From a virus: a DNA stretch of 20,156 nucleotides. Of the stretch, positions 1-18,205 are shown one piece after another (position 1 is the stretch's first letter; each line of letters opens with the position of its first letter). The notes under the pieces are model-generated. The model saw nothing but the letters and a program-made list of their open reading frames with translations. It was not told where the DNA came from and ran no database searches. A program made the position numbers and the translations under genes. The DNA lies in IMG/VR virus record IMGVR_UViG_3300037149_000087, positions 1 through 20,156 of that record; one strand, given 5' to 3'.

Positions 1-3000
1 TTCTGCCTTATAGTATTTGTTGGGAAGGGGAGTGTCCTCTTCTACTCCAGCAAATACTTCAATGGGGGTGCCATTAACCAGCCCCACCAGCACGGACCAG
101 GGTTTATCCTTGTATTTGACCTTGTGGATCTTGATATCCGTGGTCTTGGGCCGCTCTCTTCGCACTACCGGCTCAGCCACTTCTTTCTTGATGCTATTCA
201 GCACTCCAGTTCGACACTTATCCCGATAGACGGTGATGCCCTTCAGGCCATTATCAAATGCCTCCATGTACAATTGACTCACATCTTCTACCGTAGCATC
301 TTCAGGGAGATTTACTGTGCTGCTAATGCTATGATCAATATGTCGTTGAATTGCGGCTTGCATCTTGATTCGCTTGTGGTAATCAATGGAGTTAGCTTCT
401 ACATAGATGGATATGTCAAAATCGGGGTTAATGTTCAACGCATCCTGAATTCCCTGGTGATACACCGTGTATTGAACGGTGTCTCCGGATCCTGGAACTT
501 TCACACTACGAGTCATGGCGGCGAGGAATAGAGGCTCAATTCCAGAGGTGCAATTTCGCATCTCGATACTCAGGGAACCCGCAGGGGACTGAGTGAGTAG
601 CCCAATATTTCGCAGACCCTTGGCTTTAATCATACCCTGAGTTTTTTTACTAAGACGCTGAATAAAGGGGGACTTCTTGTGACGTTCCCAGTCAAAAATC
701 TGAAAACTGCCCTTCTCTTCGGCCAACAGAGCAGAAGTTTGATAAGCGATATTGGCCAAAAAGTCGTAGATGGATTCAGCCATCTGTATTGCCTCATCCG
801 TATCATAACGAAGCCCCATCATGGCCAACGCATCGGCTAATCCAGTGTTGCCCACTGAGATACGACGACCTAGAACTCCGGCAATGCGATTCCCCTCAAG
901 AGGCAGGATCGGAAGATCCCAAGACTTGATGTTATCCTGTGCCCTGACTCCAATGCCAATTACCTCTGCATAGGCATCAAAATCAAAACTAGCTTCTGAG
1001 GTATAGGGATGGCGAACAAAAGCGGGTAAAAAGAAGAGACCCAGATTACATGAGTCAAATGCACTCAAGGTTTCTTCGGCACAGTTATGGGATATTAAAC
1101 CATTAGCATCAAAGGCATGTGGTCCCTCAACGGTGCAATCAAACACTTCTTCCTCACCAGCAGGTTCAATGGACACCACTTTAGTAGTAGTGCAATCTCT
1201 ATAGGCTGCACGTTTATGGGGTGAGAGAATTAGGGCAAGTTTAGCTGCTTTGCTATCTTGAAGGAAACCCACCCTCTTCTCAAATGTAGCAATACTGCTT
1301 CTGGATATCACCAGTTCGTGATTCGCCTTACACCAAAAAAGGCCGTTTTCACCGGTTCCATTATTAAGGGGCATTTCACGAAACTCTGCATTTCGTCGAT
1401 TTTCGTATATGGAAGAGTTAATTCCAAAACGAGCAAGGAGTCGCTGGACTAGGTGGAGTATTTGAGTGTCAGACTGATTCAATCTAACTGAGCTTCCTTT
1501 ATTGGGGTTTACCAAAACTGTGCCATCTGCATCAAAAAGACCTGATAGAAATCCACTAATAAAACTTGAGCTTGCACGCTCAATACTATCTAGAGGTCGT
1601 TTAGTGGGAAATTCAAGGTATTGGGAACAAAGATTAAAGAGTTGCATGGATCTTACATATATTCTGTCTCCTTCAGGTTCCAAATTAATCTTTGATCCAA
1701 AAGGAAAGGGGCTCTTCATGGATAAGGGATCCAGGGTTTTAATAAACTCAACGGCTTTTTGTGCGGTCGCCTTTCCTTCCTCCCAGAAGCCTAAAATTGC
1801 TGACTTGGTGGAAGTGTGGTAATGACCATCTCCCAGCAACGAGCCCACTAAATAGCCCTCTTCAAAAGTTTCAGGCCCTCCCCAGCAAACCTGGGGATTT
1901 TGGCTGAGAAGAAGTTCAGCTTTAAGTTGAAGATTCTGTAATTCTACCCATTCTGGCACCCCATCAGCCCCTCTGACCAGAAACTTATGATTGGCTGTAG
2001 CCTTAATGGAGTGCCCTCGGCTGGTAGATACTTTATAAACTGGTTTGACACCAGTAGACCAAAAACCAGTGGTGGGAAAATGTTCTCCGTTGAGCGTGGT
2101 CATGTGAGGAATACCCACTAAATCTTTAACTTGCTTAGCTCCCCCATCAGTTAGAATCCAAGTGTCACCCGTAAGACATGGATTCAGCCCAACGGTCTCA
2201 AACGAATAGTTGACCCATTTGGTCTCTCCGGTTGCTGGATCAGTAAACTCAATCTCAGGAAGGACCGTATACTGATCCGCAGGGGATTCACGAATAATAT
2301 GATCCCAATTTAGAATCCCAGGTTCTGCTGAACTCCACGCATGGTACATCAGCTTGTCCCACAAAACTCTAGCCTTAATCATTCTAGAAATTCGTGGGTA
2401 GGCGTTATCCTTGAACTCAAACCAGAGTTCATATTCCCCGTCTTCCTTGACTGCTTTCATAAATTGGTCGTTGATTCGAACTGATACATTGGAGTGAGAG
2501 GTGGACTTTAAGCGATCTGCCACCGCTGCCCACTTGTAGTCGTTGATGTTGATGCCGACTCCAGCTAACTCATCAAAGAAGGGCTGTTTCTTCAAGTCAG
2601 ACTTTTCTTCAATGAAAAGTTCAATGTCCGGATGACTGATTCGCATGGTCTGAAGATTTGCCCCTCTGCGCCCAGCCTGACCAATCATCCCAGTCGTATA
2701 AGAAAAAAAGTCCATGAAGCTGGCCGCACCAGTGGAGGAACGTGCTGCGTTGTTTGTAGCGGCCCCACGAGGGCGAAGACCGCTGATATCGTGCCCCTCC
2801 CCTCCTCTGAATGCAAAGATACGAGCCATGTTTTTGGCTGTATCAAAAATGGATTCCAGGTTGTCTTCTGGTGGGGGCAGAGTGAAGCAGTTTTGGCAAA
2901 CAACCCCCTCTACTACGTAAGAGTGGTCCGGGTGATCCACACCTAATGTGTAGACAAATGGTAACTCCGAGTAAATTGGAGTCTTACTGATGATAACTGC

Positions 3001-4596
3001 TAACTCAGTTCCATCCTCAGTGAGCTTGGTGTATTGACGGACCTGAGTCTTTTCAACATACTTTTTAAGTTTTAGGGCTATTCGTCCGTCTGCATAGTGT
3101 TTTTGAATATTAGATAGTATGTCTAGGGAGGGGGTAAAGGCAAGTTTGTGACAGTTCTTTGCAACTCCAAAGTTAGTGAGTGACTCCTTCAGTTTGGAGT
3201 GCCTGACTTGAATACCGTTAGCCCTAAATAGGTGAAACAGGTCAATCATAAGGGTGGGGTTACACATAACGACTCGAATCTCTGTATTTGCCACACTACC
3301 ATCTGACTCTATCAAACCGTACATAAGTTGCTTAATTGAGGGAGTGGGTAGGTTAAAAAACTTAGGGCCTAACTTCTTCCCACCAAACCCGTGGCCAAAC
3401 AGACTTCGAAAAACTATCCCAAGAACCACACTATGAAACACCACCTGAGTGGTATTATCTTTGTTATTGTGATTTATGTCTGGAACTAAGTGGAATACTT
3501 CTTCACCAACCTCAGAAACAAAGGAAATTAACTCCGTTTCAGTCTGGTTAAAGGTAAATGTAATACCAAGAGGGGAAGAATAGCCTTGCAGGGTTCGGTG
3601 AAAAACGCAACCGTCACCATACCACAGCCCTAGGAAGCGCATTAGTCGGGGGGTTAGGGTGAGATGGCGAGGTAATTTTGCTGATGCCTTACTATTTGCT
3701 ATAAACTCTTTTTCATGTCTGGGGTGTTTGTATTTCCAGTGGCGAACTGTAGAGATGACATCTTCCTCCGTTACTAGATCAATCCAGCGGCCCCTTTCGG
3801 CATCTTTATAGGGAGTCATATCTAAATAGTCAGCAAGATCAATACAAACATCAGAGAAGGAGTGGTTATTTTTAGGTAGGGCAATGAAATCACCGGGCCT
3901 CAGATAGCCAATCTCGTTCCAAGTCAGTGCCTGACCCCACCCCTCTTGCTCGTTGGACACTGAGTAGAACTTGTGGTTAGCAGTGACAACAAAGCTGTCA
4001 CTACCATGCACCTTAACCTCATAAAGCTGCCGTCCAGCTAATGGATTTTTGTGAATTTGGCTAACTTTAGCTAGATTACCATTATGAGTGATAACCCAAT
4101 CACCAATAGCAACATCACTAATTTTCTTAGCTCCATTGGTTGTAGTCACCATCGAGTCTGGGTGAAAGCAATTAGAACTGCTGGCCTTCACATAGGGATT
4201 CCCCAAAGCAAACAGCCCCGAGCCCTGTGGAGAATATTTCCACCCATCCAACACTCCGTAGAACTTATCCTTCCAGTAGGAAAATTCCTTGGTATTCGAG
4301 GGGCTTTTCATTTCTTCATTTGCCAAAACTATGGAAATCCGATTCCACATTTCCGCAGGAGTTTGCTCACAGCAGTCTCCTGCTTGAGTATGAAGAGCGT
4401 ATTTATCCACCCAAATGCGAGATGCTAAAGTTGCATTTTCTGGTAAAACCTTCATTTCCTCAATATACCACTCGTAACATTTGGCGTAAGCGTTAGCTTC
4501 ACTCTTAAGTGGAGCGGAAGCACTACTTACACCTGAGCCTTTACTTGTGAGATATTCATCATAGAGTTCCTGATAGGTCAAAATTTTGTCGATCAC
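1..4596 (-). CDS. nrdJ: Class II ribonucleoside-diphosphate/triphosphate reductase with two inteins (3' end outside window)
   Basis: This gene makes deoxyribonucleotides for phage DNA synthesis using an adenosylcobalamin-generated thiyl radical. The frame runs 1532 codons without a stop from GTG at 4596, preceded by AGGAG, to the window edge. An in-frame TAG lies just upstream of the GTG, with no other start between them. Exteins are residues 1-142, 570-806 and 1172 onward. Family signatures seen are SSSN/CFTLP (first redox cysteine, C570), EPGILNWD (758-765), NP/CAE (radical cysteine C1172 with flanking N805 and E1174), SCNLG (second redox cysteine C1183), PAGSLS (1338-1343), SGIEPLF, DHSISSTVNLPE (near 1421-1432) and KGITVYRDKCR (1452-1462). 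After splicing the three cysteines become 143, 380 and 391; the 11-residue spacing of the last two fits class II enzymes. The C-terminal part around 1500-1532 (WSVLVGLVNGTPIEVF) resembles the TSCPD domain typical of NrdJ. No N-terminal ATP-cone is obvious. It is the last visible gene of a three-gene minus-strand run. Confidence 0.95.
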   Translation of the reverse strand, partial: MIDKILTYQELYDEYLTSKGSGVSSASAPLKSEANAYAKCYEWYIEEMKVLPENATLASRIWVDKYALHTQAGDCCEQTPAEMWNRISIVLANEEMKSPSNTKEFSYWKDKFYGVLDGWKYSPQGSGLFALGNPYVKASSSNCFHPDSMVTTTNGAKKISDVAIGDWVITHNGNLAKVSQIHKNPLAGRQLYEVKVHGSDSFVVTANHKFYSVSNEQEGWGQALTWNEIGYLRPGDFIALPKNNHSFSDVCIDLADYLDMTPYKDAERGRWIDLVTEEDVISTVRHWKYKHPRHEKEFIANSKASAKLPRHLTLTPRLMRFLGLWYGDGCVFHRTLQGYSSPLGITFTFNQTETELISFVSEVGEEVFHLVPDINHNNKDNTTQVVFHSVVLGIVFRSLFGHGFGGKKLGPKFFNLPTPSIKQLMYGLIESDGSVANTEIRVVMCNPTLMIDLFHLFRANGIQVRHSKLKESLTNFGVAKNCHKLAFTPSLDILSNIQKHYADGRIALKLKKYVEKTQVRQYTKLTEDGTELAVIISKTPIYSELPFVYTLGVDHPDHSYVVEGVVCQNCFTLPPPEDNLESIFDTAKNMARIFAFRGGEGHDISGLRPRGAATNNAARSSTGAASFMDFFSYTTGMIGQAGRRGANLQTMRISHPDIELFIEEKSDLKKQPFFDELAGVGININDYKWAAVADRLKSTSHSNVSVRINDQFMKAVKEDGEYELWFEFKDNAYPRISRMIKARVLWDKLMYHAWSSAEPGILNWDHIIRESPADQYTVLPEIEFTDPATGETKWVNYSFETVGLNPCLTGDTWILTDGGAKQVKDLVGIPHMTTLNGEHFPTTGFWSTGVKPVYKVSTSRGHSIKATANHKFLVRGADGVPEWVELQNLQLKAELLLSQNPQVCWGGPETFEEGYLVGSLLGDGHYHTSTKSAILGFWEEGKATAQKAVEFIKTLDPLSMKSPFPFGSKINLEPEGDRIYVRSMQLFNLCSQYLEFPTKRPLDSIERASSSFISGFLSGLFDADGTVLVNPNKGSSVRLNQSDTQILHLVQRLLARFGINSSIYENRRNAEFREMPLNNGTGENGLFWCKANHELVISRSSIATFEKRVGFLQDSKAAKLALILSPHKRAAYRDCTTTKVVSIEPAGEEEVFDCTVEGPHAFDANGLISHNCAEETLSAFDSCNLGLFFLPAFVRHPYTSEASFDFDAYAEVIGIGVRAQDNIKSWDLPILPLEGNRIAGVLGRRISVGNTGLADALAMMGLRYDTDEAIQMAESIYDFLANIAYQTSALLAEEKGSFQIFDWERHKKSPFIQRLSKKTQGMIKAKGLRNIGLLTQSPAGSLSIEMRNCTSGIEPLFLAAMTRSVKVPGSGDTVQYTVYHQGIQDALNINPDFDISIYVEANSIDYHKRIKMQAAIQRHIDHSISSTVNLPEDATVEDVSQLYMEAFDNGLKGITVYRDKCRTGVLNSIKKEVAEPVVRRERPKTTDIKIHKVKYKDKPWSVLVGLVNGTPIEVFAGVEEDTPLPNKYYKAE
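1084..2178 (-). other. Intein 2 in NrdJ (Hint splicing domain plus LAGLIDADG endonuclease), 365 residues
   Basis: This in-frame protein intron covers residues 807-1171 of the precursor. It starts with the nucleophile C807 (CLTGDTWILTDGGAKQVKDL, block A). Block B is near 862-872, with TANHKF containing T867 and H870. It ends in the canonical LISHN (H1170, N1171), followed by C1172 as the +1 nucleophile. Two LAGLIDADG motifs are visible, LVGSLLGDG (acid D923) and LSGLFDADG (acid D1024), so a homing endonuclease domain sits between the splicing halves and both metal-binding acids are intact. Removal joins GLNP to CAEETLSAFDSCNLG, a perfect class II reductase active-site segment. Reductase inteins at this NPC site are a known family theme; activity here is inferred from motif completeness. 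Confidence 0.93.
2890..4170 (-). other. Intein 1 in NrdJ (Hint splicing domain plus LAGLIDADG endonuclease), 427 residues
   Basis: This in-frame protein intron covers residues 143-569. Block A begins at C143 (CFHPDSMVTTTNGAKKISDV). Block B is near 202-212 (VVTANHKFYS, with T205 and H208). LAGLIDADG motifs are FLGLWYGDG (acid D328) and MYGLIESDG (acid D432). Blocks F and G are near 548-569 (YTLGVDHPDHSYVVEGVV, then CQN). The last residue is N569 and the +1 residue is C570. The penultimate residue is Gln rather than the usual His. About 100 residues lie between block B and the first LAGLIDADG motif. Removal joins KASSSN to CFTLPPPEDN, which restores the conserved SNCF segment holding the first redox cysteine. 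Splicing and homing activity are inferred from the motifs. Confidence 0.92.
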
Positions 4597-4602
4597 GCAC
4601 CA

Positions 4603-4607
4603 CTCCT
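4603..4607 (-). promoter_or_regulatory. Ribosome binding site for nrdJ
   Basis: AGGAG lies six bases before the GTG at 4596 on the minus strand. It fixes the start: an in-frame TAG at about 4606-4608 leaves no room for an earlier start codon, and the next in-frame ATG is 46 codons in and would cost much of the N-terminal extein. Confidence 0.75.
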
Positions 4608-4666: not shown

Positions 4667-5470
4667 TCAAAGTTCTTCGGTTGTAGTATTCTCAGGATTC
4701 CAACTAGGCTCGTTAAGCTCCTCACTCGGTGCCATCTGGGCTCGTTTAGTGGTTATAATTTTTTCCACCAACAAGAACTCCTCGTCAATGACTTTTTTCG
4801 TCATGAGCGTAGGGTCGGGAGGCAGGAATCCAAGGGCGTAGAGCCCCACTACTTTTTTATCGGTCAGGGGGGTTTCTTGTGCTAGGGCCATATCTACAAT
4901 TCCAGCGAAAGCCTCAGCAGCCTTAACATTGGGAGCGTAGAATTGAGGGCCAATATACACCCCTTTCTCACTCATTAATTGGCAAAATAGCCAAGCAGAA
5001 GAGATCTTTGGGGTTTTTCTGCTGAGGGTAAGGTTGGTTGCCTTGAATAGCTGTTCCCCATCTTCAGGGAGGGCCTCTCTGGTTTGCAGCCTAGCTAGCT
5101 CGGCAAGAAGAGCATACTCCTCGTGTCCTCGGTGGGTCTGGTTTCGAGGGAGAAAGTCTGCCTCTTCTGCCAGAAGCATATCAAGTTGCTCTTTGGGATC
5201 AAACAGAATATGGTAGTCACGCTCCAGTGACAACTCTTTTTTGTTCAGGCCCTGGCCAAATCGGTTACCTTCAAAAAAGAACTTTTGGAGTTTTTGAAGT
5301 GTCTCCCTACGCGAGAGCCAAGCGGTAGAAAAGAGCCGACTTCGGAAGATCAAGTCATTCATCTTTGGGAATGCGGCAAGCTCCTGAAAATGAAAAAAGT
5401 TATAGTCATCCAGCATCTCCTTATCAATGCGGATGTCTTCGTTACAAATCAGAGTCAAGTCTTGTGGCAT
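4667..5470 (-). CDS. Hypothetical phage protein, 267 residues
   Basis: I do not recognise this protein. It appears to be a soluble, mixed alpha/beta protein with no signal peptide and no obvious membrane segment. The C-terminal 30 residues are acidic and polar (ending NTTTEEL) and look disordered. Only two cysteines are seen (positions 9 and about 163), so a zinc site is unlikely. The ATG at 5470 is the first possible start after an in-frame TAG seven codons upstream, but its ribosome binding site is poor. A later ATG at residue 19 is directly preceded by AAGGAG, with too little spacing, so the true start is uncertain. It lies between the 459-codon gene and nrdJ on the same strand, 70 bp from nrdJ, which suggests co-transcription. 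A nucleotide-metabolism role would be guesswork. Confidence 0.75.
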   Translation of the reverse strand: MPQDLTLICNEDIRIDKEMLDDYNFFHFQELAAFPKMNDLIFRSRLFSTAWLSRRETLQKLQKFFFEGNRFGQGLNKKELSLERDYHILFDPKEQLDMLLAEEADFLPRNQTHRGHEEYALLAELARLQTREALPEDGEQLFKATNLTLSRKTPKISSAWLFCQLMSEKGVYIGPQFYAPNVKAAEAFAGIVDMALAQETPLTDKKVVGLYALGFLPPDPTLMTKKVIDEEFLLVEKIITTKRAQMAPSEELNEPSWNPENTTTEEL

Positions 5471-5662
5471 ACCTAGATAATACTCACTCTACCCCCTGTT
5501 GGGAGCCAATTTTTGGTATTTCTTCTAGTGTTACGGTAGTTACTGCGGGTCTTGCGTGGTGTTGAGCGGCCTTCTCATAGCTAGACTAGGCGGCAAGTCC
5601 AAGTTGGGATGCGGTGTTACCCCCGGAGGGGGATGCGGTAACACTCGGATTGAGGAACGGGG
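5471..5662. other. Non-coding gap between the two unknown minus-strand genes
   Basis: No convincing gene was found on either strand. The longest ATG-initiated frame noticed on the minus strand is about 12 codons. The gap contains the hairpin with direct repeats at 5606-5644. It is the only sizeable gap inside the minus-strand block, so it may hold a promoter or processing site for the 267-codon gene and nrdJ. Confidence 0.5.
5606..5644. repeat. Hairpin with overlapping direct repeats
   Basis: GTGTTACC (5614-5621) and GGTAACAC (5637-5644) form a perfect 8 bp inverted repeat. Inside it CCCCC and GGGGG flank GGA (5620-5632), an alternative 5 bp stem. The ten-base direct repeat GGGATGCGGT occurs at 5606-5615 and 5630-5639. 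No U-tract follows on either strand, so this does not look like an ordinary intrinsic terminator. A protein-binding operator, an RNA processing site or a replication-related structure are all possible. Confidence 0.55.
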
Positions 5663-7042
5663 CTACTTATCCTCATGATAATTTTCTTCTTTTGATTGGA
5701 GTTTACATTGTTGACGATAGAACGCTGATCGCACTCTTTGCCAGCTTTTACTACGAAGAAAGGTGGCTCCATGCCACAAGTCCATCTTAGCCAAAGCAGT
5801 TTGGATGGCGTGGTTCGCTCGGGTAAGCGGGTTTATAACCTGTCGGCTGTCTCCTCCGATCAGAGTTCCATTTACCTCCCGAACCATCAGGGGCCTTCCA
5901 GTTAGTCCCAAGATTAACGAGTAGTCAAACCAGTCCTTGATCAGATTCCTCTGCCACACGTGTAAGTGCAGCGGATGATGCTGAGGACGGTCCTTATATC
6001 TCGCACCCAAGGAGACCAGCTTAGGTGATCGGAACTCTATGGCACCTTCCGCCTGTAGAGTTCTGAGCTTACGTGTTAGGTAAGTCTTAATGTTGCACAA
6101 ATTGCTAGGGCAAACTGGATCCAGTGCTACGACCCTGACTTTCCCTATCATTTGGGCTACAAGTTTATTGATATATTGCTTTGTGAGCTTTTCTTTGGGG
6201 ATGAGACTCCCCCGTCGATCTTCGGTAGGATTCTGAATCTGAACAGCCATTCCATTGGGACTGAAGCAGATGCCCATATCACACAACCTGGGATCACGGC
6301 AAGAGTTTATGCTATGACGATCCAGGTTTACTTCATGAATCCGGACCTCTTTATGCGTGTAGGCCAGCCACACTGTCTTTCCTCGTCTGAGGAGGCGCAT
6401 GGAAATGACATATCGCCAATCCAAATCGAGTGATTTTTTAAGTTCGGCCCGAATTTCTGAGGTGATGGGAATGGAGTTTACCCTAGCCCAGGACTTAAAC
6501 CTCAGCGGATTAACAGCCTGACAACGGCGATTCACATAATCCCGACGAACCTTTCGCTCATGAGGGTCTCCAGTATTAGCCTTTATGAGGGTTCCTGAGC
6601 GATCAAGATGAACAAGCCGGTTCCACACTCCCTGATAAGACTCAAAATATGGAAGCAGGATGCAAGAGGTCTCTGGCGACAGCTTCACCAATTTTCGGAG
6701 TCGCAAAGTCTGTTCAGAGTAGTCCGACTCATCAAAGGGAGCTTGAAACACCACAGTCCCCCCCTCATCTCGATAGTCTGTCTCCTGGCGGAGCCCTGGA
6801 AGGATGCCACCAGATTGACAGCTTTGAAATCCGCTCCGCCGATCATGCAGCCAATCACCCTCGCACTTGATTCCGCTTGCGGGAGACTGATACCAGAAGA
6901 ACTTCTCTCCCTTGCGAAAGTAACCAGCAGGATCCGGCAGTGCCGGAAGGGTGTCGGGGGCAATCAAAAGGGTAGTCCTGGAAAGCTGCTTCATCTCATG
7001 ATGATACTCGAAGTCAGTTCCCTCTGAAGGTTTCTTGAGCAA
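5663..7042 (-). CDS. Hypothetical phage protein, 459 residues
   Basis: I do not recognise this protein. It is basic and rich in Arg, Lys and Trp, especially from about residue 160 to the C-terminus, with scattered cysteines but no clear zinc-binding pattern. There is no signal peptide or membrane helix. The net positive charge would suit a nucleic-acid-binding or virion-associated protein, but no catalytic motif was found. The start is TTG at 7042. Between an in-frame TAA ten codons upstream and this TTG there is no ATG or GTG, and GGGGA lies about seven bases before it. The next in-frame ATG is residue 17. It is the first gene of the minus-strand run and faces the tail operon across a divergent promoter region. 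The opposite-strand frames at 6608-7027 and nearby are shorter and lack support. Confidence 0.75.
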   Translation of the reverse strand: MLKKPSEGTDFEYHHEMKQLSRTTLLIAPDTLPALPDPAGYFRKGEKFFWYQSPASGIKCEGDWLHDRRSGFQSCQSGGILPGLRQETDYRDEGGTVVFQAPFDESDYSEQTLRLRKLVKLSPETSCILLPYFESYQGVWNRLVHLDRSGTLIKANTGDPHERKVRRDYVNRRCQAVNPLRFKSWARVNSIPITSEIRAELKKSLDLDWRYVISMRLLRRGKTVWLAYTHKEVRIHEVNLDRHSINSCRDPRLCDMGICFSPNGMAVQIQNPTEDRRGSLIPKEKLTKQYINKLVAQMIGKVRVVALDPVCPSNLCNIKTYLTRKLRTLQAEGAIEFRSPKLVSLGARYKDRPQHHPLHLHVWQRNLIKDWFDYSLILGLTGRPLMVREVNGTLIGGDSRQVINPLTRANHAIQTALAKMDLWHGATFLRSKSWQRVRSAFYRQQCKLQSKEENYHEDK

Positions 7043-7260
7043 AACTTCTTCCCCATCCTTGAGAGAACCTTACAAGAAAAGAATAAATAATATGTGTATA
7101 TATTCTCTTCTTCTTTTTATTGGAGTTATATAGGGAATTTCAGGGTCAGTGAGATGAAGAATCTAGTATCCATGCGGGTTTAGTCATTTTCAGAGTCCCT
7201 GAAACACATAAAATTGGAACTTTTCCCGTTTGACTTCTGTACACCCCTTTAGAGGCTTTG
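7043..7260. promoter_or_regulatory. Divergent intergenic region, probably holding promoters for both gene blocks
   Basis: Genes leave this region in both directions, so promoters are expected here. Positions 7075-7135 are strongly AT-rich, with TATATA-like and TATTAT-like stretches on both strands that could serve as -10 elements. I could not pair any of them with a convincing -35 box. AATAAATA at 7082-7089 on the plus strand resembles the T4-type late promoter core by one mismatch, which is weak evidence. TTTCAGGG (7138-7145) and CCCTGAAA (7197-7204) form an 8 bp inverted repeat with a long loop, possibly an operator. AGAGG at 7251-7255 is the ribosome binding site of the first tail gene. 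Confidence 0.5.
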
Positions 7261-7803
7261 ATGACCCCCCTTCCTGAAGTTAAGAATGCCCTTGAAATGA
7301 AAGTATTGAACCATGTGTTTCATTTCCGTAGACTTAGGTGGGGGGATATGCCTGCGGTAAGTGAATGGGTTGAAAAATACAAGATGGTGGATCGTTTGGC
7401 AATCACCGCCCACGCACTTCATAACATATCTGGGAAAGATGTGACTCCGGAGGAGGCCCTGAAAGTTTTGACCTCCATACCTCGGGGTGCCTTGGAGACT
7501 GTATATAAATTTTACAAAGGAAGTTTGGACCCCCACCGAATGTTCGAGGTTCTTCCATGGTGGAAGGCCCCTGACGCCGCCACCTATGTCAGAGATTTGG
7601 AAGATGAGGAAGGTCAGACTGACGGACAGATGGATGAGGTGGAGGAACTTCTGACTCAGAAGTTTGGGAAGCAGGCCGTGGATGAGGAGAAAGCCTTGGC
7701 ACATAAAATAGTTGCCAATACAGGTTATGCGGGAGCCATGAGAATTGAAGAAAACTTTATGGACAGGGCCAAGCAAGGCCGTACAGATCAGGAGGAATGG
7801 TGA
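7261..7803 (+). CDS. Possible tail assembly chaperone-like protein, 180 residues
   Basis: This is a small charged protein. It begins with a hydrophobic/aromatic segment (VFHFRRLRWGDMPAVSEW) and has a helical middle and an acidic stretch near residues 118-131 (LEDEEGQTDGQMDEVEELL). The FxFRxLxW opening and the position two genes before the tape measure protein suit a tail assembly chaperone or related assembly factor. No family can be proven by eye. The ATG at 7261 is preferred over the TTG at 7258 because AGAGG ends five bases upstream of the ATG. Its last codons overlap the next gene by 7 bp, indicating translational coupling. It is the first gene of the plus-strand tail operon. Confidence 0.7.
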   Translation: MTPLPEVKNALEMKVLNHVFHFRRLRWGDMPAVSEWVEKYKMVDRLAITAHALHNISGKDVTPEEALKVLTSIPRGALETVYKFYKGSLDPHRMFEVLPWWKAPDAATYVRDLEDEEGQTDGQMDEVEELLTQKFGKQAVDEEKALAHKIVANTGYAGAMRIEENFMDRAKQGRTDQEEW

Positions 7804-8900
7804 GCGAGATCCCCTCTGGCGTTGATATGATGAATCAAATCAGTCTTGGCGAACTAAAATATAAACAATCTAATATCGCGCTTGAGGTGAAGGAGAAGGT
7901 CTCTACTGCGATGGAAGAGATCATTACCATGGGGGCGAGAGTCCGACCCCTCAAGCTAAACGGTAAGAGGGTGGGGTGGCTCCGTCCGTTGGCCTACTCC
8001 GAACGTAAGGTATTGGACCGAATGATAGAGAAGGACGATGAACGGGTTCTTTTGACCCTGACTCACTGCACCACTCTGTCTGAAGAGGACATTAATGACC
8101 TGGATATGTATGAGATGAACTCTATCCTCCATCGTCTTTACTCTGCTAATGTGGCTGACATGTCTCTGTTCCCCTACATCTCAGCGTTTTGCACTACTCA
8201 AATTAGCCAGAACTTATGGTACTCAAAACATGATGCCCTTTATTCACGCCGGGAACTGATTATGCCTGACGGAAAGATTCTGAAACTTTTGGCTCTTCCG
8301 GATCACATAGCTCTTTGGTCCACACTGACCACCATTCGGAACCGCTCTATCACTAAATTAGAGGACAGCTTGAACTTTGGTTCATTGATTAAAGCTCAGA
8401 TTGGTAAAGATGCAAATAAGTATATAAAAGAGCTAGTCAAGGGTTTGAATGAGTTCCAGATTGATATAATTGAGCCTTGGACAGAAGTTGTGGATTACGT
8501 TAAGCTGCAATCCGCCACCCCCCATTTTAGTGATGGTTTTGGCCACTCCCATGAGGATAATACGGTTCAGGGCCTGCTGAGGGAGATGGAGGGGATGATG
8601 CATGGAGACAAACATGAACAACTCATGCAGCAGTTCTACGACAAACAGCTTAGAGAGGCTCAGGAACAGGAGCATTTGGTGCAGCTTCGAGTTCAAAAAC
8701 GGAGACAGGAGCTTGCGCTTCTTGAGGATGATGGGGCTCTGGTGGTGGTAACGGATGCGGAAGTTAAGCGTCGAGAGAGAGAAATTCACGCTAGATCTCA
8801 GGGATTGATCCAACAGCAAATCAATGAGTTGTCAAACCAATCCGAAGAGCCCCCTCCAAGTTCGGAGAGAATCACAAAGTATTTTGAAAGAGAGGGGTAG
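7797..8900 (+). CDS. Tail/baseplate-hub assembly chaperone-like protein, 367 residues
   Basis: The first 150 residues contain a segment of the form VRPLKLNGKRVGWLRPLAYS, followed by an EEDINDLDMYEMNSILHRLY helix and a conserved-looking cysteine (AFCTTQ). This resembles the layout of T4 gp26-type hub assembly proteins, though the similarity is impressionistic. Residues about 270-345 are strongly charged and Gln/Glu/Arg-rich (for example LREAQEQEHLVQLRVQKRRQ) and should form a long helix or coiled coil. The ATG at 7797 is immediately preceded by GGAGGA, and the following GTG at 7800 has better spacing, so either may be the real start. A 7 bp overlap with the upstream gene and 30 bp to the next gene indicate one operon. 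Confidence 0.8.
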   Translation: MVSEIPSGVDMMNQISLGELKYKQSNIALEVKEKVSTAMEEIITMGARVRPLKLNGKRVGWLRPLAYSERKVLDRMIEKDDERVLLTLTHCTTLSEEDINDLDMYEMNSILHRLYSANVADMSLFPYISAFCTTQISQNLWYSKHDALYSRRELIMPDGKILKLLALPDHIALWSTLTTIRNRSITKLEDSLNFGSLIKAQIGKDANKYIKELVKGLNEFQIDIIEPWTEVVDYVKLQSATPHFSDGFGHSHEDNTVQGLLREMEGMMHGDKHEQLMQQFYDKQLREAQEQEHLVQLRVQKRRQELALLEDDGALVVVTDAEVKRREREIHARSQGLIQQQINELSNQSEEPPPSSERITKYFEREG

Positions 8901-8910
8901 CTGTCCCTCT
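8891..8910 (+). other. Small hairpin at the stop codon of the 367-residue protein gene
   Basis: AGAGGG and CCCTCT can pair as a 6 bp stem around an 8-base loop that contains the TAG stop at 8898-8900. The next gene's ribosome binding site (AGGAG, 8921-8925) begins ten bases later. No T-run follows. It could slightly tune expression of the next gene; chance is also possible. Confidence 0.3.
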
Positions 8911-8930
8911 GATGTAGCTTAGGAGCTTTA

Positions 8931-9542
8931 ATGACTCGGAAATACGCAAAACGCATCCCTGATGTAACCAAACCCACCAAGGCGGAGGCCCCAGCCCCAC
9001 TACTATCTCTTGAAGAGATTATTTCTGACCTTAAAGGCTTTGGTATTGAAGAAACCTCAGAATTGATTAGCTTTGGGGCCAGTGGCAAGCAGATTCAGCT
9101 TCGATTGGCCAACATCCCCACCGAAGAGGAAATTGAAACCCTTCTGGCAGTTGAGGAGTATAAGGGTCATGCCTGGGTCTCTAGGGTTAAAGCAGAGATA
9201 TTATCCCGCGCCATTAGTTGGGTGAATGGAATTGACCTTAAGGGCCGTAAGGATGAATTTGTTGTAGACCCTACGACCAATCAGGAAATGGCCTTGCGGG
9301 TGGTGATTCGTAACCTCATTATGGGGTGGGGTCAAGAGGTGGTTAATATCCTGTGGAAAATTCTTATGGTTCATTGCCAAAAAATTGAAGATCGACTGTT
9401 TGAGTCTCTCCCTGACAGCCAAGTCATGACTGAAGTCGAAAAGCGATTTATTGGACAGGCTCTCCAGGAAATCCAAAATGCTCAGCAGGAAGTGTATAAG
9501 GAAGCAATTAAGGAAATTGCCAACACCGATAGGGATTCTTAA
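8931..9542 (+). CDS. Tail assembly protein directly upstream of the tape measure gene, 203 residues
   Basis: This protein is not recognised with certainty. The N-terminus is Lys/Pro/Ala-rich. Then comes LISFGASGKQIQLRLANIPT, followed by helical segments including EYKGHAWVSRVKAEILSRAI and a Gln/Glu-rich C-terminal helix. The phrase 'feature value, LRL-x-x-(I/L)PT-EEE' and the position just before the tape measure gene resemble phage tail assembly chaperones or hub assembly proteins. AGGAG at 8921-8925 gives a clear ribosome binding site with five-base spacing. The TAA stop shares one base with the ATG of the tape measure gene, which implies coupled translation. I saw no open alternative frame of useful length that would indicate the G/GT-type programmed frameshift known in lambda-like tails. 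Confidence 0.75.
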   Translation: MTRKYAKRIPDVTKPTKAEAPAPLLSLEEIISDLKGFGIEETSELISFGASGKQIQLRLANIPTEEEIETLLAVEEYKGHAWVSRVKAEILSRAISWVNGIDLKGRKDEFVVDPTTNQEMALRVVIRNLIMGWGQEVVNILWKILMVHCQKIEDRLFESLPDSQVMTEVEKRFIGQALQEIQNAQQEVYKEAIKEIANTDRDS

Positions 9543-12500
9543 TGGCACAAAGTTTAAAAGCAGTGGGAAGAGAGACTCTTGAAACCCTTCAGGGTGTGAA
9601 AACCCTGATGGGCTCTCTTACTGCGGCTGTGGGAGATCTTAACAACGCTTTGGCGGGTATGAGCAAGCCTATCGATGAAGGGGGTAAGTCTCTAAAAAGA
9701 TGGGGAGATAGCCTTCATGATGTAGTTGATACCACAGAGGAGGGAATTGACAATTATAAGGAAATATTAAACCTCACTACTAAATTGCACCGAGTGGGGA
9801 TATCAGATCAAAAAGAACGGGAAAAAGCTCAGAAATATCTGAAGGAATTGAGTAGTGAGTATGAGAAAGCCAAAAAATTTCATGAAGGAGATGTGGCTAA
9901 GTTAAAAGAAATATCTAAAGTTACAAATGCCATTAATAAGGCGATGGCAGTAGGTGCCGATAGTGCTGAAGAATTTGCAGCGGCGGTCGGAGAGGTCTCT
10001 AATAACGCAAAAGAAGTTAAAGGGACTTTGGGGAATTTATCACTTGAAAGACTTACTGCAAGTACTCATAGGCTCGGAAAATCTCTAGACGAGGGAATTG
10101 GTGGGGCCTTGAAGGGCTTAAAGCTCCTTGATAACTTTGGGTTCAAAGGTTTGTTTGGGAATTTGGCTAATATGCAAATGAGAATCAAACAGATTAAAGA
10201 TGAGACTCAAAAAAGTGGGCAGGCCAGAGCCAGCCAGCATAGCCGAGCCGTGGGTAATGCATATGAGGATCTCACTTCAGGAAACGCTATCCGACGAGAG
10301 GGGGGTATCTCTCAACTAGGTGGATTTTATAAAAATTCTGAGACACCAGAAGCCCGTGCAGGGCTGGTGCGCCAACTTTCTGGAAAAACCGGGGTCACGG
10401 GGATGCTGGACAGGGCTCTGGGTAAAAGAGCCTTAGCGGCTGCCGGTGGGGGCAACCTCGGGTTCGCAGGTAAGATGGGGATGGGCCTGATGGAATCAGG
10501 TGGCGGCTCTGTCTTGGGTGGGGCTGCTATGCAGATGGCTGGCCCCGCTGCGGCCATTTATGGCCTACTTCAATTATTCTCAAAGGGGTTTGAACGTAAT
10601 AAAGAAATCTACTCTAAACTAGGGGGAGGTGGGATAGTTCAACGGGGTAATATGGGGGCAAACTACAATAAATGGAGTAATGCATTATCCGCTGGAGGGC
10701 TGGGCCAAGGTCCAGGGTCTGCTAGATATTTTGACCTCAATTTTGAAAAAATGACAGATCTGATGAAAGAAGTTATTGAGTCCGGTCAAGCAGTCCAGAA
10801 TAAGTATGGCATGATCAATGGGGGGATGTCCCCCGATCAGGCCCTCACTGGTGGGAGGGCCACAAACGTCTATAGTGGAATTGTTCGAAATGCCGCCATG
10901 TTTGGAAAAAACATTGGGCTAGATAGCGGAGAGTCCGCGAAACTAACTATGAAATTGATGCATGATTTCAGTTTATCCATGGGTGAAGTTGAGGACATGT
11001 TTATTGGAATTGACAAAGCCGTCCAAGTAACGGGTATCAGCACCATAGCTTACCTCAAACTCATTGACGATGTAACTAGTCAGTTTGATAAACTTAACAA
11101 ATCTCTGAACTACACTTGCGGACTTATGCTTTTGTTAGGTAACAACGCAAAATACACTGATGATGACATCAAGGGTATGGTTAAGGGTCTCACCGGTAAC
11201 AAGAAGCCCTATGAGCAAGCTATCTACGGGTATCAGATGGCTGGGCCACAGGGAAGAGAAGAGCTAGCCAAAGCTAGACAAACTCAATATCGTAGAACGG
11301 GGGCCGGTCTAGAGAAAGAGTTGGGCTTAGGGGAGGGTGCGTTAGAGGGCATGACTCGGGAGCAGATTCAGAACATGGTTGCTTCAGGCCACCCAGAACA
11401 GCAGGCACTGGCCACCCGCTATCTAAATGATCGGAACAGAGGAAGATCAGCTATGGCTAAGCATGGTGCCTTTGATCTAGCCACTCAGGATGAGCTTTAT
11501 GGTCATGACATTCGAAGTGACACAACGACTCAACTCTCTCTTTTGAATTCCATCTTGCCAAAAGGGACTCATATCTCAGATTTTATCGGTGGGACAAAAG
11601 GAGCGGAAAACCGAGTGCAAAATCTGATGTCTAATGAGGGATTTATGGGTAAGGCCATCCACCTTAATATCTCTCCTGAAGGCATCAGTGCAAAACTTGG
11701 GGCGGCTGGTCAGCAGATTATAGGTGGAATCAGTGCCGCAGCCACCACAGGGGGTAAAGAGGGGGAAGCTGCTAGAGGTAAGTTTACCAATATTAGTGCA
11801 GGGGGGTGGAAAGAAATCAGAGATGCCCTTGCAGAAGGTAAGGGCATCTCTGGTACCAAAGCTGTCCAGGGAGCCCTGAGTGGGTTGGGAGCGGATCAGC
11901 TAGGGGATGTCATAGTAGACGCAGAGGAAAAGGCGGCGGCAGAAAAGGCTAAACAGAATCAAAGTTTTATTACTACACCCCTGGATCGGATCAACAAGTC
12001 CTTGGACTCTATCGTTGAAAATCTTATAACTTTGCTTCAAAAAGCGGTTAATTTCTTCAATTGGAATATCCTTGGTAAGGATGCGTATCAGGCGGCTAAA
12101 CAAAATAAGGAGGAAGCTGAAAACTATAGGCAGAATCAAATGCCCATGGATAAAACGGCTTTAGGTGGGGTGTTGAAGACCGTCAGAGGGGGGATGGAGA
12201 AGCCATATACCGCAGAAAAGGGGAAACACCTCCACGATGCCCTTGGGGAGATTTATTTGAACTCTAAAGAGCTTCTGGGTCATCTTGGACATGATACGGT
12301 CTCGTCTGATGCTCGAAAAGAGGCTAATAACGCACTAGCGTTCCTATTCAGTCCAAAGAGAAACTTCAAGGATATTGGAGATGTGAACGATGCCAAGTCT
12401 AGGATCACTAATGCCTTAAAGTCTGTTACGGATAGTGAATCGGCGGGTGAAAAAGCCAATGCCAATATGTTGTCTACTTCTAAGGAAAAGACTACTGAAA

Positions 12501-13228
12501 CCGGGGCAACTGGGGCTGACGGCACTGGGATGGAACTTCTAGCCGCCCAAAGACAGGTGGAGAACTCAAGAGGAGATATCCGCCTACCCTCTAAGGGTTA
12601 TATAGAAAATGTTAAAGACTCATGGAATGACCCTAAGTCCAAATCCTATAAAGGGCTTCATGAACAGTATAGGACAATGGAAGAAGCTCTGGCGGATACC
12701 CCCATTGGTATCGCTCAAACTAAACCCTCCACGGCGAAGCACATTATGGAAAGAGCCGGTCTTAAATTTGACAAGGATCGGTTCATGGGGACGGGTAATT
12801 ATGCCAAAGGCCAGGGTCGAGACGAAGAAGTAAAAAATTCCCAACTTCAGGTCCAGCAACTTGGGATGACTCAGTTAGAGTCAGACTTTAAACAAAAGTA
12901 TGGTGAGGCTATCAAAGGGGTCAACATTCACGCATTAGCACTAGCCGCCTGGGATGGTGGTAATAAAATGGTAGAAAAGGGGCTAGGTAAGGCAATTCAA
13001 TCTGGTGATGCCACCCGGTGGATTTCCCCAGATAATATCCCAAGTAAAGAAGTGAACAAATATGTAAGAGACGCTTTAGCACTAGCCAATCAGAGTATTA
13101 CCAATAATTACAATGTAGATGCCTCTGCGCTTACGAATGTGGCCTCTGTTTCCGCTGGTAACTCAAGAGAGACCGCCCCAAGTCGTGGTGGCCTCTTAGC
13201 TTCTAACCAGAAGCTATCGGGGTTCTAA
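9542..13228 (+). CDS. Tail tape measure protein with C-terminal lytic transglycosylase-like domain
   Basis: This protein sets tail length and is delivered with the DNA. It has 1228 residues and is the largest protein of the tail operon. The N-terminal 250 residues are highly helical and charged (coiled-coil-like). Residues about 295-345 are Gly/Ala-rich and hydrophobic (GGGSVLGGAAMQMAGPAAAI), a probable membrane-inserting segment. The middle is helical with Gly-rich linkers. The C-terminal 230 residues show a lysozyme-like pattern: E1007 in QRQVEN as candidate catalytic acid, GIAQTKPSTAKHI at 1056-1068 and ALALAAWDGGNKMV near 1131-1144. This matches the E, GxxQxxPSTA and ALAAYNxG motifs of soluble lytic transglycosylases, here with Trp-Asp in place of Tyr-Asn. 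AGGGA at 9531-9535 precedes the ATG by six bases. By the general rule of about 0.15 nm per residue, the tail would be near 180 nm. Confidence 0.88.
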   Translation: MAQSLKAVGRETLETLQGVKTLMGSLTAAVGDLNNALAGMSKPIDEGGKSLKRWGDSLHDVVDTTEEGIDNYKEILNLTTKLHRVGISDQKEREKAQKYLKELSSEYEKAKKFHEGDVAKLKEISKVTNAINKAMAVGADSAEEFAAAVGEVSNNAKEVKGTLGNLSLERLTASTHRLGKSLDEGIGGALKGLKLLDNFGFKGLFGNLANMQMRIKQIKDETQKSGQARASQHSRAVGNAYEDLTSGNAIRREGGISQLGGFYKNSETPEARAGLVRQLSGKTGVTGMLDRALGKRALAAAGGGNLGFAGKMGMGLMESGGGSVLGGAAMQMAGPAAAIYGLLQLFSKGFERNKEIYSKLGGGGIVQRGNMGANYNKWSNALSAGGLGQGPGSARYFDLNFEKMTDLMKEVIESGQAVQNKYGMINGGMSPDQALTGGRATNVYSGIVRNAAMFGKNIGLDSGESAKLTMKLMHDFSLSMGEVEDMFIGIDKAVQVTGISTIAYLKLIDDVTSQFDKLNKSLNYTCGLMLLLGNNAKYTDDDIKGMVKGLTGNKKPYEQAIYGYQMAGPQGREELAKARQTQYRRTGAGLEKELGLGEGALEGMTREQIQNMVASGHPEQQALATRYLNDRNRGRSAMAKHGAFDLATQDELYGHDIRSDTTTQLSLLNSILPKGTHISDFIGGTKGAENRVQNLMSNEGFMGKAIHLNISPEGISAKLGAAGQQIIGGISAAATTGGKEGEAARGKFTNISAGGWKEIRDALAEGKGISGTKAVQGALSGLGADQLGDVIVDAEEKAAAEKAKQNQSFITTPLDRINKSLDSIVENLITLLQKAVNFFNWNILGKDAYQAAKQNKEEAENYRQNQMPMDKTALGGVLKTVRGGMEKPYTAEKGKHLHDALGEIYLNSKELLGHLGHDTVSSDARKEANNALAFLFSPKRNFKDIGDVNDAKSRITNALKSVTDSESAGEKANANMLSTSKEKTTETGATGADGTGMELLAAQRQVENSRGDIRLPSKGYIENVKDSWNDPKSKSYKGLHEQYRTMEEALADTPIGIAQTKPSTAKHIMERAGLKFDKDRFMGTGNYAKGQGRDEEVKNSQLQVQQLGMTQLESDFKQKYGEAIKGVNIHALALAAWDGGNKMVEKGLGKAIQSGDATRWISPDNIPSKEVNKYVRDALALANQSITNNYNVDASALTNVASVSAGNSRETAPSRGGLLASNQKLSGF
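10821..10861 (+). other. Two adjacent GC-rich hairpins inside the tape measure gene
   Basis: GGGGG/CCCCC with a four-base ATGT loop (10821-10834) is followed after five bases by GGCCCTC/GAGGGCC with an eight-base loop (10840-10861). Both lie within codons for GGMSPDQALTGGRA. They could be a by-product of Gly/Ala/Pro-rich coding or could slow ribosomes. No function is claimed. Confidence 0.35.
11816..11854 (+). other. Long perfect hairpin inside the tape measure gene
   Basis: CAGAGATGCCCTT (11818-11830) is perfectly complementary to AAGGGCATCTCTG (11840-11852). Inside the stem a G-U and a C-G pair add two steps, leaving a five-base loop AGAAG (11833-11837). Outside, a U-G and an A-U pair extend it further, giving 17 pairs in a 39-base element. 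It lies in frame and encodes roughly IRDALAEGKGISG (around residues 759-771). The length of perfect pairing is far beyond what codon choice would normally give. Confidence 0.7.
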
Positions 13229-14302
13229 ATGGCCACTCCCACTACTCCTCTTGGTGATATCGGGTTCACAGCGACAACTGCTCAACCCGTTCAGTCCTCC
13301 CTCACCTCGTCTCAGGCTACCGGTCAGATGAGCCAAGCCCTTGACACCTTAGTCAGATACACAGATCTCGCTAACGCCCCATGGTGGCAAATTGGTTTCA
13401 CCGGTAACCCTACCTTAAAGCGTTTGAAGTCCCCTGTAACTTTTCAGGTGGGACTGGATGCAACCAGACCTTCAGTCATGCTTCCTAAATCTCAATCTAA
13501 TCAGACTCCACTGACTCTGAAGTTAAATTGCAGTCTGACTCAAGTGTCCCACCAGATGAAGCATATTATTAACAAAGCCAACACCAGATCTGGTGTACAC
13601 CTCACCTTCTGGGGTATGGAGCCAGACCTGATTACTGGTTCGGGCAGCACCGGCCTTTTCATGAATCGGTATGGTATTACAGAGATTATGTCATTGGAGG
13701 ACGATACCGATTTTTTGGAGCAGTCCATTGATCAGTCTGCTTACGGCAGTTCCTCACCCAATGCTTATGGTCAGCCTTACACTGGCCCAGACGCCTCTCC
13801 AGTGGCCCTGGCTAAACTACGGGGAATGTTCCCGCAGCATAGATTCAGGGTTGCCGCACAGGATGCCTTCATGGAGCTTTTGAGCCTTTTCAAAAATAAT
13901 GGAATAACCAGATTCGTCTCGGCTGATTCTGACTCTCCTTTTAACAATAGGACTCAGCTATCTCCCACCATTTGGTCTGCCCAATATGGGTCTAATACTT
14001 CGCAAAGAAACGCGAGAAATAATGATGTAATGGTTAAGGGGCAGGTTACCATGAACTTTAAGGGGAACATCTACCAGGGTTACTTCAAGTCTTTAACTTG
14101 GACAATGGATGCAAACTCCCCTTATCAATGGAAATTTGATTTTATTTTTCAAGTAGAACGAGCCATTAACTATGTATTTTACACACAGAGTTCTGCTGCG
14201 GCCCAGGCTGCCTCTAATGCTGCTTTTAATGCCAGGGTAACTGGAGCGGCTAACTCCCTTTCCGCTTCGGGCGTGGCTGGGAGCCAAGAGCTTGTTGGAT
14301 AA
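13229..14302 (+). CDS. Baseplate / tail-tube-initiator-like protein A, 357 residues
   Basis: This is a beta-rich protein with a Ser/Thr/Gln-rich start and an Ala/Ser/Gly-rich, probably flexible C-terminus. The core contains VTFQVGLDATRPSVMLPKSQ, LTFWGMEPDLITGSGSTGLF and, near the end, a segment of the form GQVTMNFKGNIYQGYFKSLT followed by NSPYQWKFDFIF. The WG...TGsgsTG and G-x-Y-x-G-x-F...P-(Y/F)...F-D-x-x-F patterns recur in the next gene product, so the two are probably paralogues. Proteins of this type between tape measure and hub commonly form baseplate rings or the first tube layer (T4 gp48/gp54-like roles); this assignment is inference from position. The ATG abuts the stop of the tape measure gene and its ribosome binding site is weak (GGGG seven bases upstream). 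Confidence 0.8.
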   Translation: MATPTTPLGDIGFTATTAQPVQSSLTSSQATGQMSQALDTLVRYTDLANAPWWQIGFTGNPTLKRLKSPVTFQVGLDATRPSVMLPKSQSNQTPLTLKLNCSLTQVSHQMKHIINKANTRSGVHLTFWGMEPDLITGSGSTGLFMNRYGITEIMSLEDDTDFLEQSIDQSAYGSSSPNAYGQPYTGPDASPVALAKLRGMFPQHRFRVAAQDAFMELLSLFKNNGITRFVSADSDSPFNNRTQLSPTIWSAQYGSNTSQRNARNNDVMVKGQVTMNFKGNIYQGYFKSLTWTMDANSPYQWKFDFIFQVERAINYVFYTQSSAAAQAASNAAFNARVTGAANSLSASGVAGSQELVG

Positions 14303-14320
14303 CCATGGACGATAACTAAA

Positions 14321-15250
14321 ATGTCAGACTCTTACCTCAACCCTATTTGGAACTCCCCCTACTTTGACCTCACCTCAGTGACCAAGGTAGGGACACTCCC
14401 AGTTCGCGGGGAGACTCGTCTGGTGCCAGTGGGTATGTTATCCTCATCAGTGGCCCCTCCTCCACAGCTTCAAACTTCTGGATCAGATGAGTCCTCTCAG
14501 GTTCCCTCAGCCTATGAGGCCATCTCATTTGCAAAATCAACCTTCACTGACTACATGAACATCACTATCCCATCTCGTATATCAGCCTCCACTGACTACT
14601 TTGAAGCGGATTACACCTATCGGTTTCTCATTAATCCTCACACTCTGAGTGTTTCCCATCAGACTGCGGATAGCCAAAGCATGACACGTGGGGGTTGGCA
14701 ATTTGGAGTGTGGGGTGAGGATGTGGTGGAACTTCATATGACTGGTATTACAGCCGGAGATTACTTCCAAAATGGGTTATCGGATCAGTGGGAAGAATAT
14801 AGTCTGAGCTATCGTAATCTTGCAGAACTCACAAATGTAGTGCTAAATAACGGTTACTGGTTTGAGGGCGAAGAGGTAAACACAGCCTGGAATGCCCCCG
14901 ATTACACCAGAAAGCGTATTAAGAGCCATGGGGATGTAGTGGTTAGAGTGGGGAATTTCATGTGGAGCGGAATGTTTACAAATATGACTCATACTAAATC
15001 CGCAGAAAACCCGTTTTATAACACGTTTGATATTGGATTTATTGCCTGGAAGGAGCGGTTTGCCTCCGGATCTCCCTGGCTCTCCGCCATCAGAAATAAC
15101 ACTTATCGTGGACATTCAAAGGAACTTCTTCTAGCTACCCCCTCCGCTACCCCTCAGTCTCAAGTGCCAGTAGACCAGTCAGTCTCTAATTCTGTAATCA
15201 CAACGGCCCCCATAGCCCCAAGTTTTCTACATATTGTAGAGTCAGCCTAA
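14321..15250 (+). CDS. Baseplate / tail-tube-initiator-like protein B, 309 residues
   Basis: This is a beta-rich protein with a variable, Ser/Pro-rich N-terminal 75 residues and a Thr/Ser/Pro-rich tail. The core reads YRFLINPHTLSVSHQTADSQ, then WGEDVVELHMTGITAGDYF, an ELTNVVLNNGYWF helix/turn, and VVVRVGNFMWSGMFTNMTHT followed by ENPFYNTFDIGF and WKER. The 'FxxNPxxLxxSHQT ... WGxxxxxLxxxGxTAG' layout is typical of phage baseplate and tail-initiator proteins. It parallels protein A segment by segment. It sits 18 bp after protein A; that gap holds a four-codon ATG...TAA frame (14305-14319) that is likely meaningless. The ribosome binding site is weak, so expression may depend on coupling. Confidence 0.8.
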   Translation: MSDSYLNPIWNSPYFDLTSVTKVGTLPVRGETRLVPVGMLSSSVAPPPQLQTSGSDESSQVPSAYEAISFAKSTFTDYMNITIPSRISASTDYFEADYTYRFLINPHTLSVSHQTADSQSMTRGGWQFGVWGEDVVELHMTGITAGDYFQNGLSDQWEEYSLSYRNLAELTNVVLNNGYWFEGEEVNTAWNAPDYTRKRIKSHGDVVVRVGNFMWSGMFTNMTHTKSAENPFYNTFDIGFIAWKERFASGSPWLSAIRNNTYRGHSKELLLATPSATPQSQVPVDQSVSNSVITTAPIAPSFLHIVESA

Positions 15251-18202: not shown

Positions 18203-18205
18203 AAT

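Follow-up and report, generated by a model that had tools for sequence, protein, structure and literature searches.

Two independent inteins, each with a LAGLIDADG-type homing endonuclease, have very probably colonised a virus-borne nrdJ gene, in which they behave as mobile passengers. The window, which is the entire 20,156-base virus record, contains the gene on its minus strand at 1–4596 as a single open frame of 1532 codons with a GTG start; on re-reading, the frame was free of stops and frameshifts, as an earlier note on this DNA had claimed. A ribosome-binding-like AGGAG is located at 4603–4607 on the same strand, 6 nt 5' of the GTG. A search of the whole frame against the NCBIfam profiles gave 417 bits for TIGR02504 (NrdJ), above the curated equivalog cut-off of 399.95, and Pfam returned reductase, Hint/Intein_splicing and LAGLIDADG/Hom_end domains. 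These profiles identify the product of the viral gene as NrdJ, a ribonucleotide reductase of class II (adenosylcobalamin-type), and the identity given in the earlier note stands.

The exteins lie on the minus strand at 4171–4596 (N-extein, residues 1–142), 2179–2889 (middle extein, residues 570–806, ending in LNP) and 1–1083 (C-extein, residues 1172–1532), and are separated by intein 1 at site 1 and intein 2 at site 2. The N-extein protein is 98.6% identical to that of the relative L002, in which it is contiguous with the middle extein. The frame runs past the end of the record, which truncates the C-extein and cuts the 3' end of the gene (1532 codons are seen, ∼1663 are expected). Two relatives are complete: L002 (1236 amino acids, with intein 2 only) and L005 (871 amino acids, intein-free). 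In comparison with these, ∼131 C-terminal residues, including the CPLC...CSSC region, are absent from the window frame. Because the record ends inside the gene and the relatives are complete, the spliced product is expected to comprise ∼871 residues; the 740 residues previously proposed are too few.

The insertion sites were mapped onto the active site by aligning the naturally intein-free L005 with TmNrdJ (1xje). Residues Cys143, Cys380 and Cys391 of L005 align with TmNrdJ 134, 322 and 333, and Asn378, Cys380 and Glu382 of the N-x-C-x-E motif align with 320, 322 and 324, the same motif residues being present in the window. The window equivalents of TmNrdJ Cys134, Cys322 and Cys333 are Cys570 (the +1 residue of intein 1), Cys1172 (the +1 residue of intein 2) and Cys1183, respectively. 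We take TmNrdJ Cys134 and Cys333 to be the redox pair and Cys322 to be the thiyl radical cysteine. With these roles, the alignment bears out the earlier statement that both inteins directly precede catalytic cysteines and that Cys1183 is the redox partner. From this mapping, no reductase activity is expected of the precursor before both inteins have left. According to a review (PMC5874633), inteins frequently interrupt sites of critical function, among them catalytic and ligand-binding ones.

Intein 1 (residues 143–569, 427 amino acids, window 2890–4170, minus strand) comprises a Hint splicing domain and a LAGLIDADG-type endonuclease; it begins with Cys1 and ends in VVCQN, followed directly by Cys570. 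Its LAGLIDADG motifs are MRFLGLWYGDG (3610–3642) and QLMYGLIESDG (3298–3330), both on the minus strand. The third residue from its end is also a cysteine, so that C567-Q-N-C570 (2887–2898, minus strand) forms a CxxC across the C-terminal splice junction, in which Cys570 is both the +1 nucleophile and the TmNrdJ Cys134 equivalent. In both inteins, block B reads TANH (TxxH), Cys1, the C-terminal asparagine and the +1 cysteine are intact, and two LAGLIDADG motifs with their acidic residues are present. When intein 1 was searched alone, Pfam Hint (1.3e-8) scored above gathering, Intein_splicing (2.6e-4) below it and Hom_end (5.6e-4) just under it (20.4 versus 21.1); the NCBIfam profile intein_Nterm scored 21.4, below its cut-off of 24.5. 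A sequence search of the PDB with intein 1 gave no firm match. An AlphaFold model from the single sequence was unusable (pLDDT 33), and an alignment of seven site-1 inteins was used instead, yielding a model with a pLDDT of 81 and a pTM of 0.83. This model matches crystal structures of inteins with homing endonucleases (TliVMA, Z 32.0; PhoVMA, Z 27.7; PI-PfuI, Z 22.5) and also I-Tsp061I (Z 15.6). The nature of intein 1 thus rests on more than profiles, because related virus contigs join the exteins without it and the predicted fold matches known inteins; the model settles that it is a complete intein with a predicted endonuclease domain, as had been claimed for residues 143–569.

Intein 2 (residues 807–1171, 365 amino acids, window 1084–2178, minus strand) consists of a splicing domain and LAGLIDADG_3, begins with Cys1 and ends in ISHN, with the penultimate histidine present, followed by Cys1172. 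Its motifs are GYLVGSLLGDG (1825–1857) and GFLSGLFDADG (1522–1554), both on the minus strand. Searched alone, it exceeded the Pfam gathering scores for both Intein_splicing (2e-17) and LAGLIDADG_3 (1.3e-21), in agreement with its earlier description as a full intein; endonuclease motifs had likewise been noted in both inteins, and the LAGLIDADG_3 match of intein 2 and the fold matches of intein 1 confirm them. The copy in L002 is identical to that of the window (1095/1095 nt) and that in L007 differs at one position (1094/1095 nt). Against the copy in L003, at which dS is saturated, dN/dS is 0.05; judged by these values, intein 2 is long-lived and under purifying selection. A proline occupies position −1 of site 2 (NP/C; window 2179–2181, with the cysteine codon at 1081–1083), and it was found in 5/5 distinct class II site-2 inteins that were read (window = L007, L003, L006, L087 and L274). 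According to PMC13123727, a −1 proline compromises splicing of the NrdJ-1 intein and is termed incompatible with splicing. At site 2 the proline belongs to the NPC active-site motif and is therefore set by the reductase and not by the intein.

Six records of the virus group of the window cover both sites (the window, L002, L003, L005, L006 and L007); L004 starts just past site 2 and was left out of this count. Only the window has intein 1 (1/6); a homologous intein 2 is shared by the window, L002, L003 and L007 (4/6); and L005 carries neither. The next relative, L025 (61% identity in the C-extein), spans both sites without an insert. The exteins of the window and L002 are 98.9–99.3% identical at the nucleotide level, and L002, on a contig of 313,597 bases (G001), has no intein 1. 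Across 20 kb the window and G001 are near-identical outside a small number of SNP tracts. Intein 1 lies within one of these, and its flanks to either side are collinear with G001. For each of the two inteins, a near-isogenic pair was found of which one member has the intein and the other lacks it. L006 contains at site 2 a 329-amino-acid LAGLIDADG intein (L006:4990–5976) that ends in LLVSN, without the penultimate histidine; no tblastn match between it and intein 2 was detectable.

The pair that differs by intein 2 preserves a conversion tract on the 5' side of the intein. Contigs G006 (containing L007) and G004 (containing L005) are 99.8% identical over 16,707 nt and differ by intein 2. The nrdJ of G006 follows L005 up to extein nucleotide 1008 and from nucleotide 1014 shows no mismatch to the window, and this window-like extein continues through site 2 (after nucleotide 1137) to the end of the contig, 195 nt past the intein. 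The switch point is therefore 124–129 nt before site 2, and on the 3' side the sequence can be followed only as far as the contig end. Upstream of the switch, dS between the window and L007 is about 1.1. Only five bases (1009–1013) are common to all sequences at the switch, too few for a k-mer joint, which makes an assembly joint at this point unlikely. Intein 2 would accordingly seem to have arrived with flanking DNA, as is expected of an intein that homes with co-conversion, and the tract is indirect support for an endonuclease that cuts the intein-free allele at its site. It points to the movement of an intein between viruses that share only ∼69–79% identity in the stretches of backbone that align. 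A corresponding tract around intein 1 was considered and dropped: against random placement of the site in the mosaic background, as many SNPs fall within 250 nt at 18% of sites and within 500 nt at 30%, which is not significant, so co-conversion is claimed for intein 2 only.

A further element of homing type follows the gene in two relatives. A free-standing HNH ORF of 241 amino acids (Pfam HNH, 1.3e-8) lies right after nrdJ and is identical in L002 (L002:7472–8194) and L005 (L005:7472–8194). It is contained in a 1,646-nt block without a mismatch between these two, and the nrdJ sequence just before the block is 81% identical. In L004 a dUTPase directly follows nrdJ with no HNH gene, and the NrdJ tail is 51% identical. 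The HNH ORF looks like a third homing-type element at the locus that seemingly also replaced the 3' end of nrdJ. Over the last 126 nt of the window, neither L002 nor L005 shows a difference, which suggests that the virus of the window probably carries the HNH gene too, past the record end. In this virus group a single nrdJ is thus the meeting point of three elements of homing type, namely the two LAGLIDADG inteins and the HNH gene, illustrating why homing is aimed at active-site codons.

In the mechanism that we infer for endonuclease activity, splicing and the direction of transfer, each endonuclease would recognise its site in the intein-free gene, where a catalytic cysteine is encoded and where constraint should be among the strongest in the gene; the endonuclease would cut this empty site, and repair would copy the intein in. 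After translation, the inteins would excise and ligate the exteins, restoring the Cys134- and Cys322-equivalent cysteines at the junctions. The placement of the inteins appears to be best explained by conservation of the target together with the cost of imprecise loss of the insert, and not by selection for a switch.

Relatives of intein 1 were found at exactly site 1 in six further distinct NrdJs [L191 (= L192), L271, L272, L273, L274 (= L275) and L276]. A pattern scan using intein 1 alone found no relative, and the family surfaced only when alignments were used; a repeat scan with the site-1 family alignment gave eight loci, all on contigs already known. The best relatives are 36–39% identical to intein 1, and its donor was not found among them. 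Together with intein 1 they form one supported clade (100/99) in a tree in which several branches, including that of the window, are long according to a warning from the tool. A penultimate histidine is usual in inteins, where it usually assists asparagine cyclisation, and is not a defining feature. In the seven site-1 inteins the residue before the final asparagine is Q, K, K, L, F, K and K (histidine in 0/7), and the third residue from the end is C, C, C, S, C, A and C (cysteine in 5/7); together with the +1 cysteine, which is redox-active, this cysteine forms a C-x-N-C. Among eight intein-1 relatives that reside in other genes (L190, L194, L195, L201, L205, L210, L229 and L232), the histidine occurs in 8/8 and the cysteine in 0/8 cases (Fisher p = 1.6e-4 and 0.007, respectively, with kinship ignored). 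Since the seven form a clade and these values ignore kinship, the difference may reflect a single inherited change. The eight consist of seven from the 13 of 80 loci that were examined (67 loci were unscored) plus L190; those left out were L191/L192 (the site-1 locus), L196, L197 and L202 (partial matches) and L212, a duplicate that is identical to L205 at 374/375 residues and likewise ends in AVHN. No published description of this viral NrdJ site-1 clade was recognised in a literature search, which is weak evidence of absence. An Enterococcus phage has an ORF with an intein-1-like domain (L189:2006–3823), and ∼0.8 kb downstream of it lies an ORF with the annotation reductase large subunit.

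The clade could be read as old and specialised for a redox niche, having lost the histidine and mostly forming a CxxC with the +1 cysteine, so that on oxidation a disulfide would block transesterification and splicing would be slow and redox-gated; we regard this as unlikely. The CxxC at junction 1 is only a hint of signal-responsive splicing. If it were true, the reductase would be completed only in a thioredoxin-reducing cytosol, by a redox-gated intein inside a redox enzyme. With its missing penultimate histidine and frequent junction CxxC, the site-1 clade offers a redox enzyme in which it can be tested directly whether inteins are selfish or regulatory.

The earlier note had suggested that splicing could act as a double on-switch; in the form of this idea considered here, slow or conditional splicing would time the activation of the reductase during infection. 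The part concerning an inactive precursor agrees with the active-site mapping, and both junctions fall on catalytic cysteines; intein 1, like all seven distinct site-1 inteins, lacks the penultimate histidine, and the −1 proline at site 2 is of the kind reported to compromise NrdJ-1 splicing. There are also precedents in the literature, namely a DnaB with two inteins, one of them redox-sensing (PMC6195587), and an intein in the R2 protein of Aquifex that assists iron loading (PMC8772380). The part concerning evolved control, however, is not supported: neither intein is retained across relatives in the manner of a regulator of its host gene, given the 1/6 and 4/6 occupancies and the empty L005, and the fact that near-identical viruses differ in whether they carry each intein argues against either being required. 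The −1 proline, moreover, is dictated by the reductase. An evolved switch is therefore considered to be quite improbable, and mobile inteins remain the favoured reading; the near-isogenic pairs provide natural material for measuring the cost or benefit of an active-site intein.

Decay, in which one or both inteins no longer splice and the gene is a pseudogene, might be suggested by the atypical QN C-terminus of intein 1 and by the −1 proline. It is opposed by the uninterrupted frame, the intact splicing residues of both inteins and dN/dS values of 0.05 for intein 2 (versus L003) and 0.02–0.06 for the exteins (versus L003 and L005), and is very unlikely. An assembly chimera, with one intein derived from another virus, is less likely still: intein 1 was found in no close relative, but its insertion is exact and in frame with intact splice residues, its site is common to six other distinct viral inteins and its flanks are collinear with G001 on both sides.

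The frequency of such inserts was surveyed in viral and host NrdJ loci. Among the best 80 of at least 551 related viral loci, all with frames spanning both sites, an insert of at least 90 amino acids occurs in one (L087, at site 2); the site-1 carriers found later by the intein search are not part of these 80. Host loci, mostly Bacteroidota by title, were represented by the best 80 of at least 547, of which 78 span both sites, and 0/78 contain an insert of at least 90 amino acids at either site. The insert in L087 (L087:5554–6000) is a 149-amino-acid mini-intein that ends in CLVHN and has no Pfam endonuclease match. One host NrdJ (L120) consists of two overlapping frames with a break near site 2 (HMM positions 7–271 and 280–774), probably owing to a frameshift. 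The viral count (1/80 of the best of at least 551) supports the view that double inteins are uncommon, but reductases with several inteins have already been published. In PMC3322345, two inteins are described in the reductase large subunit of Campylobacter phage IBB_35, which resembles the window in this respect and differs in being of class I. In PMC4071816, the intein alleles rir1-b, -g, -k, -l and -m likewise belong to one reductase gene, and one Chloroflexi reductase is listed under three of these alleles.

Another NrdJ in which both of these sites hold inteins was encountered in L274:2775–5816 (and in L275). Its site-1 intein belongs to the same clade as intein 1, whereas its site-2 intein of 311 amino acids is of HNH type by a weak HNH_3 match (21.7 versus a cut-off of 24.8) with no LAGLIDADG match, and its exteins are only 31–36% identical to L005; double occupancy is thus found in two distant NrdJ lineages. 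The PRK08332/NF006207 NrdJ model (length 1684), which we take to represent Pyrococcus/Thermococcus, contains an intein precisely at site 2, with intein 2 aligning to model positions 940–1241 and the C-extein starting at 1242. The window nevertheless scores 281 bits against this model, far from its cut-off of 2400.

Equivalents of both sites are occupied in other reductase classes. The bnrdE intein of SP-beta (Bacillus phage SPBc2), a full-length relative of intein 2 (27% identity), is inserted directly before the site-2 equivalent, the residue that aligns with position 382 of 6cgl; unlike the window, the enzyme is of class Ib and is annotated with one intein plus an intron. The NrdA intein of Tenacibaculum phage PTm1, a relative of intein 1 (24% identity), directly precedes the residue aligning with Cys225 of E. 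coli NrdA, the site-1 equivalent; this enzyme is of class I, and its intein is placed outside the NrdJ site-1 clade on a long branch. Because both sites hold inteins in other reductase classes, the two-intein NrdJ belongs to an already known type. The PTm1 NrdA frame ends inside the intein (L017:3501–4499) and a separate reductase ORF follows at 5051–6265, which indicates a broken or split gene. The NrdJ-1 split intein (8ubs), from an NrdJ gene by name, shares the Hint fold with the model of intein 1 (Z 17.2) and differs in being split and in having a +1 serine, as given in PMC13123727.

Ten neighbouring proteins of the window (4667–20,155) gave no PHROGs match at E ≤ 0.01, none of the eight of these scanned with Pfam exceeded a gathering score, and a megablast search of the window against 50,697 phage records returned no match. 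Its relatives sit on contigs of 147 and 313 kb. Two stretches of the window (9001–10,750 and 12,501–13,250) diverge strongly from G001; they lie around both ends of a gene of 1228 amino acids, the size of a tape-measure protein, and may mark a recombination or host-range hotspot.
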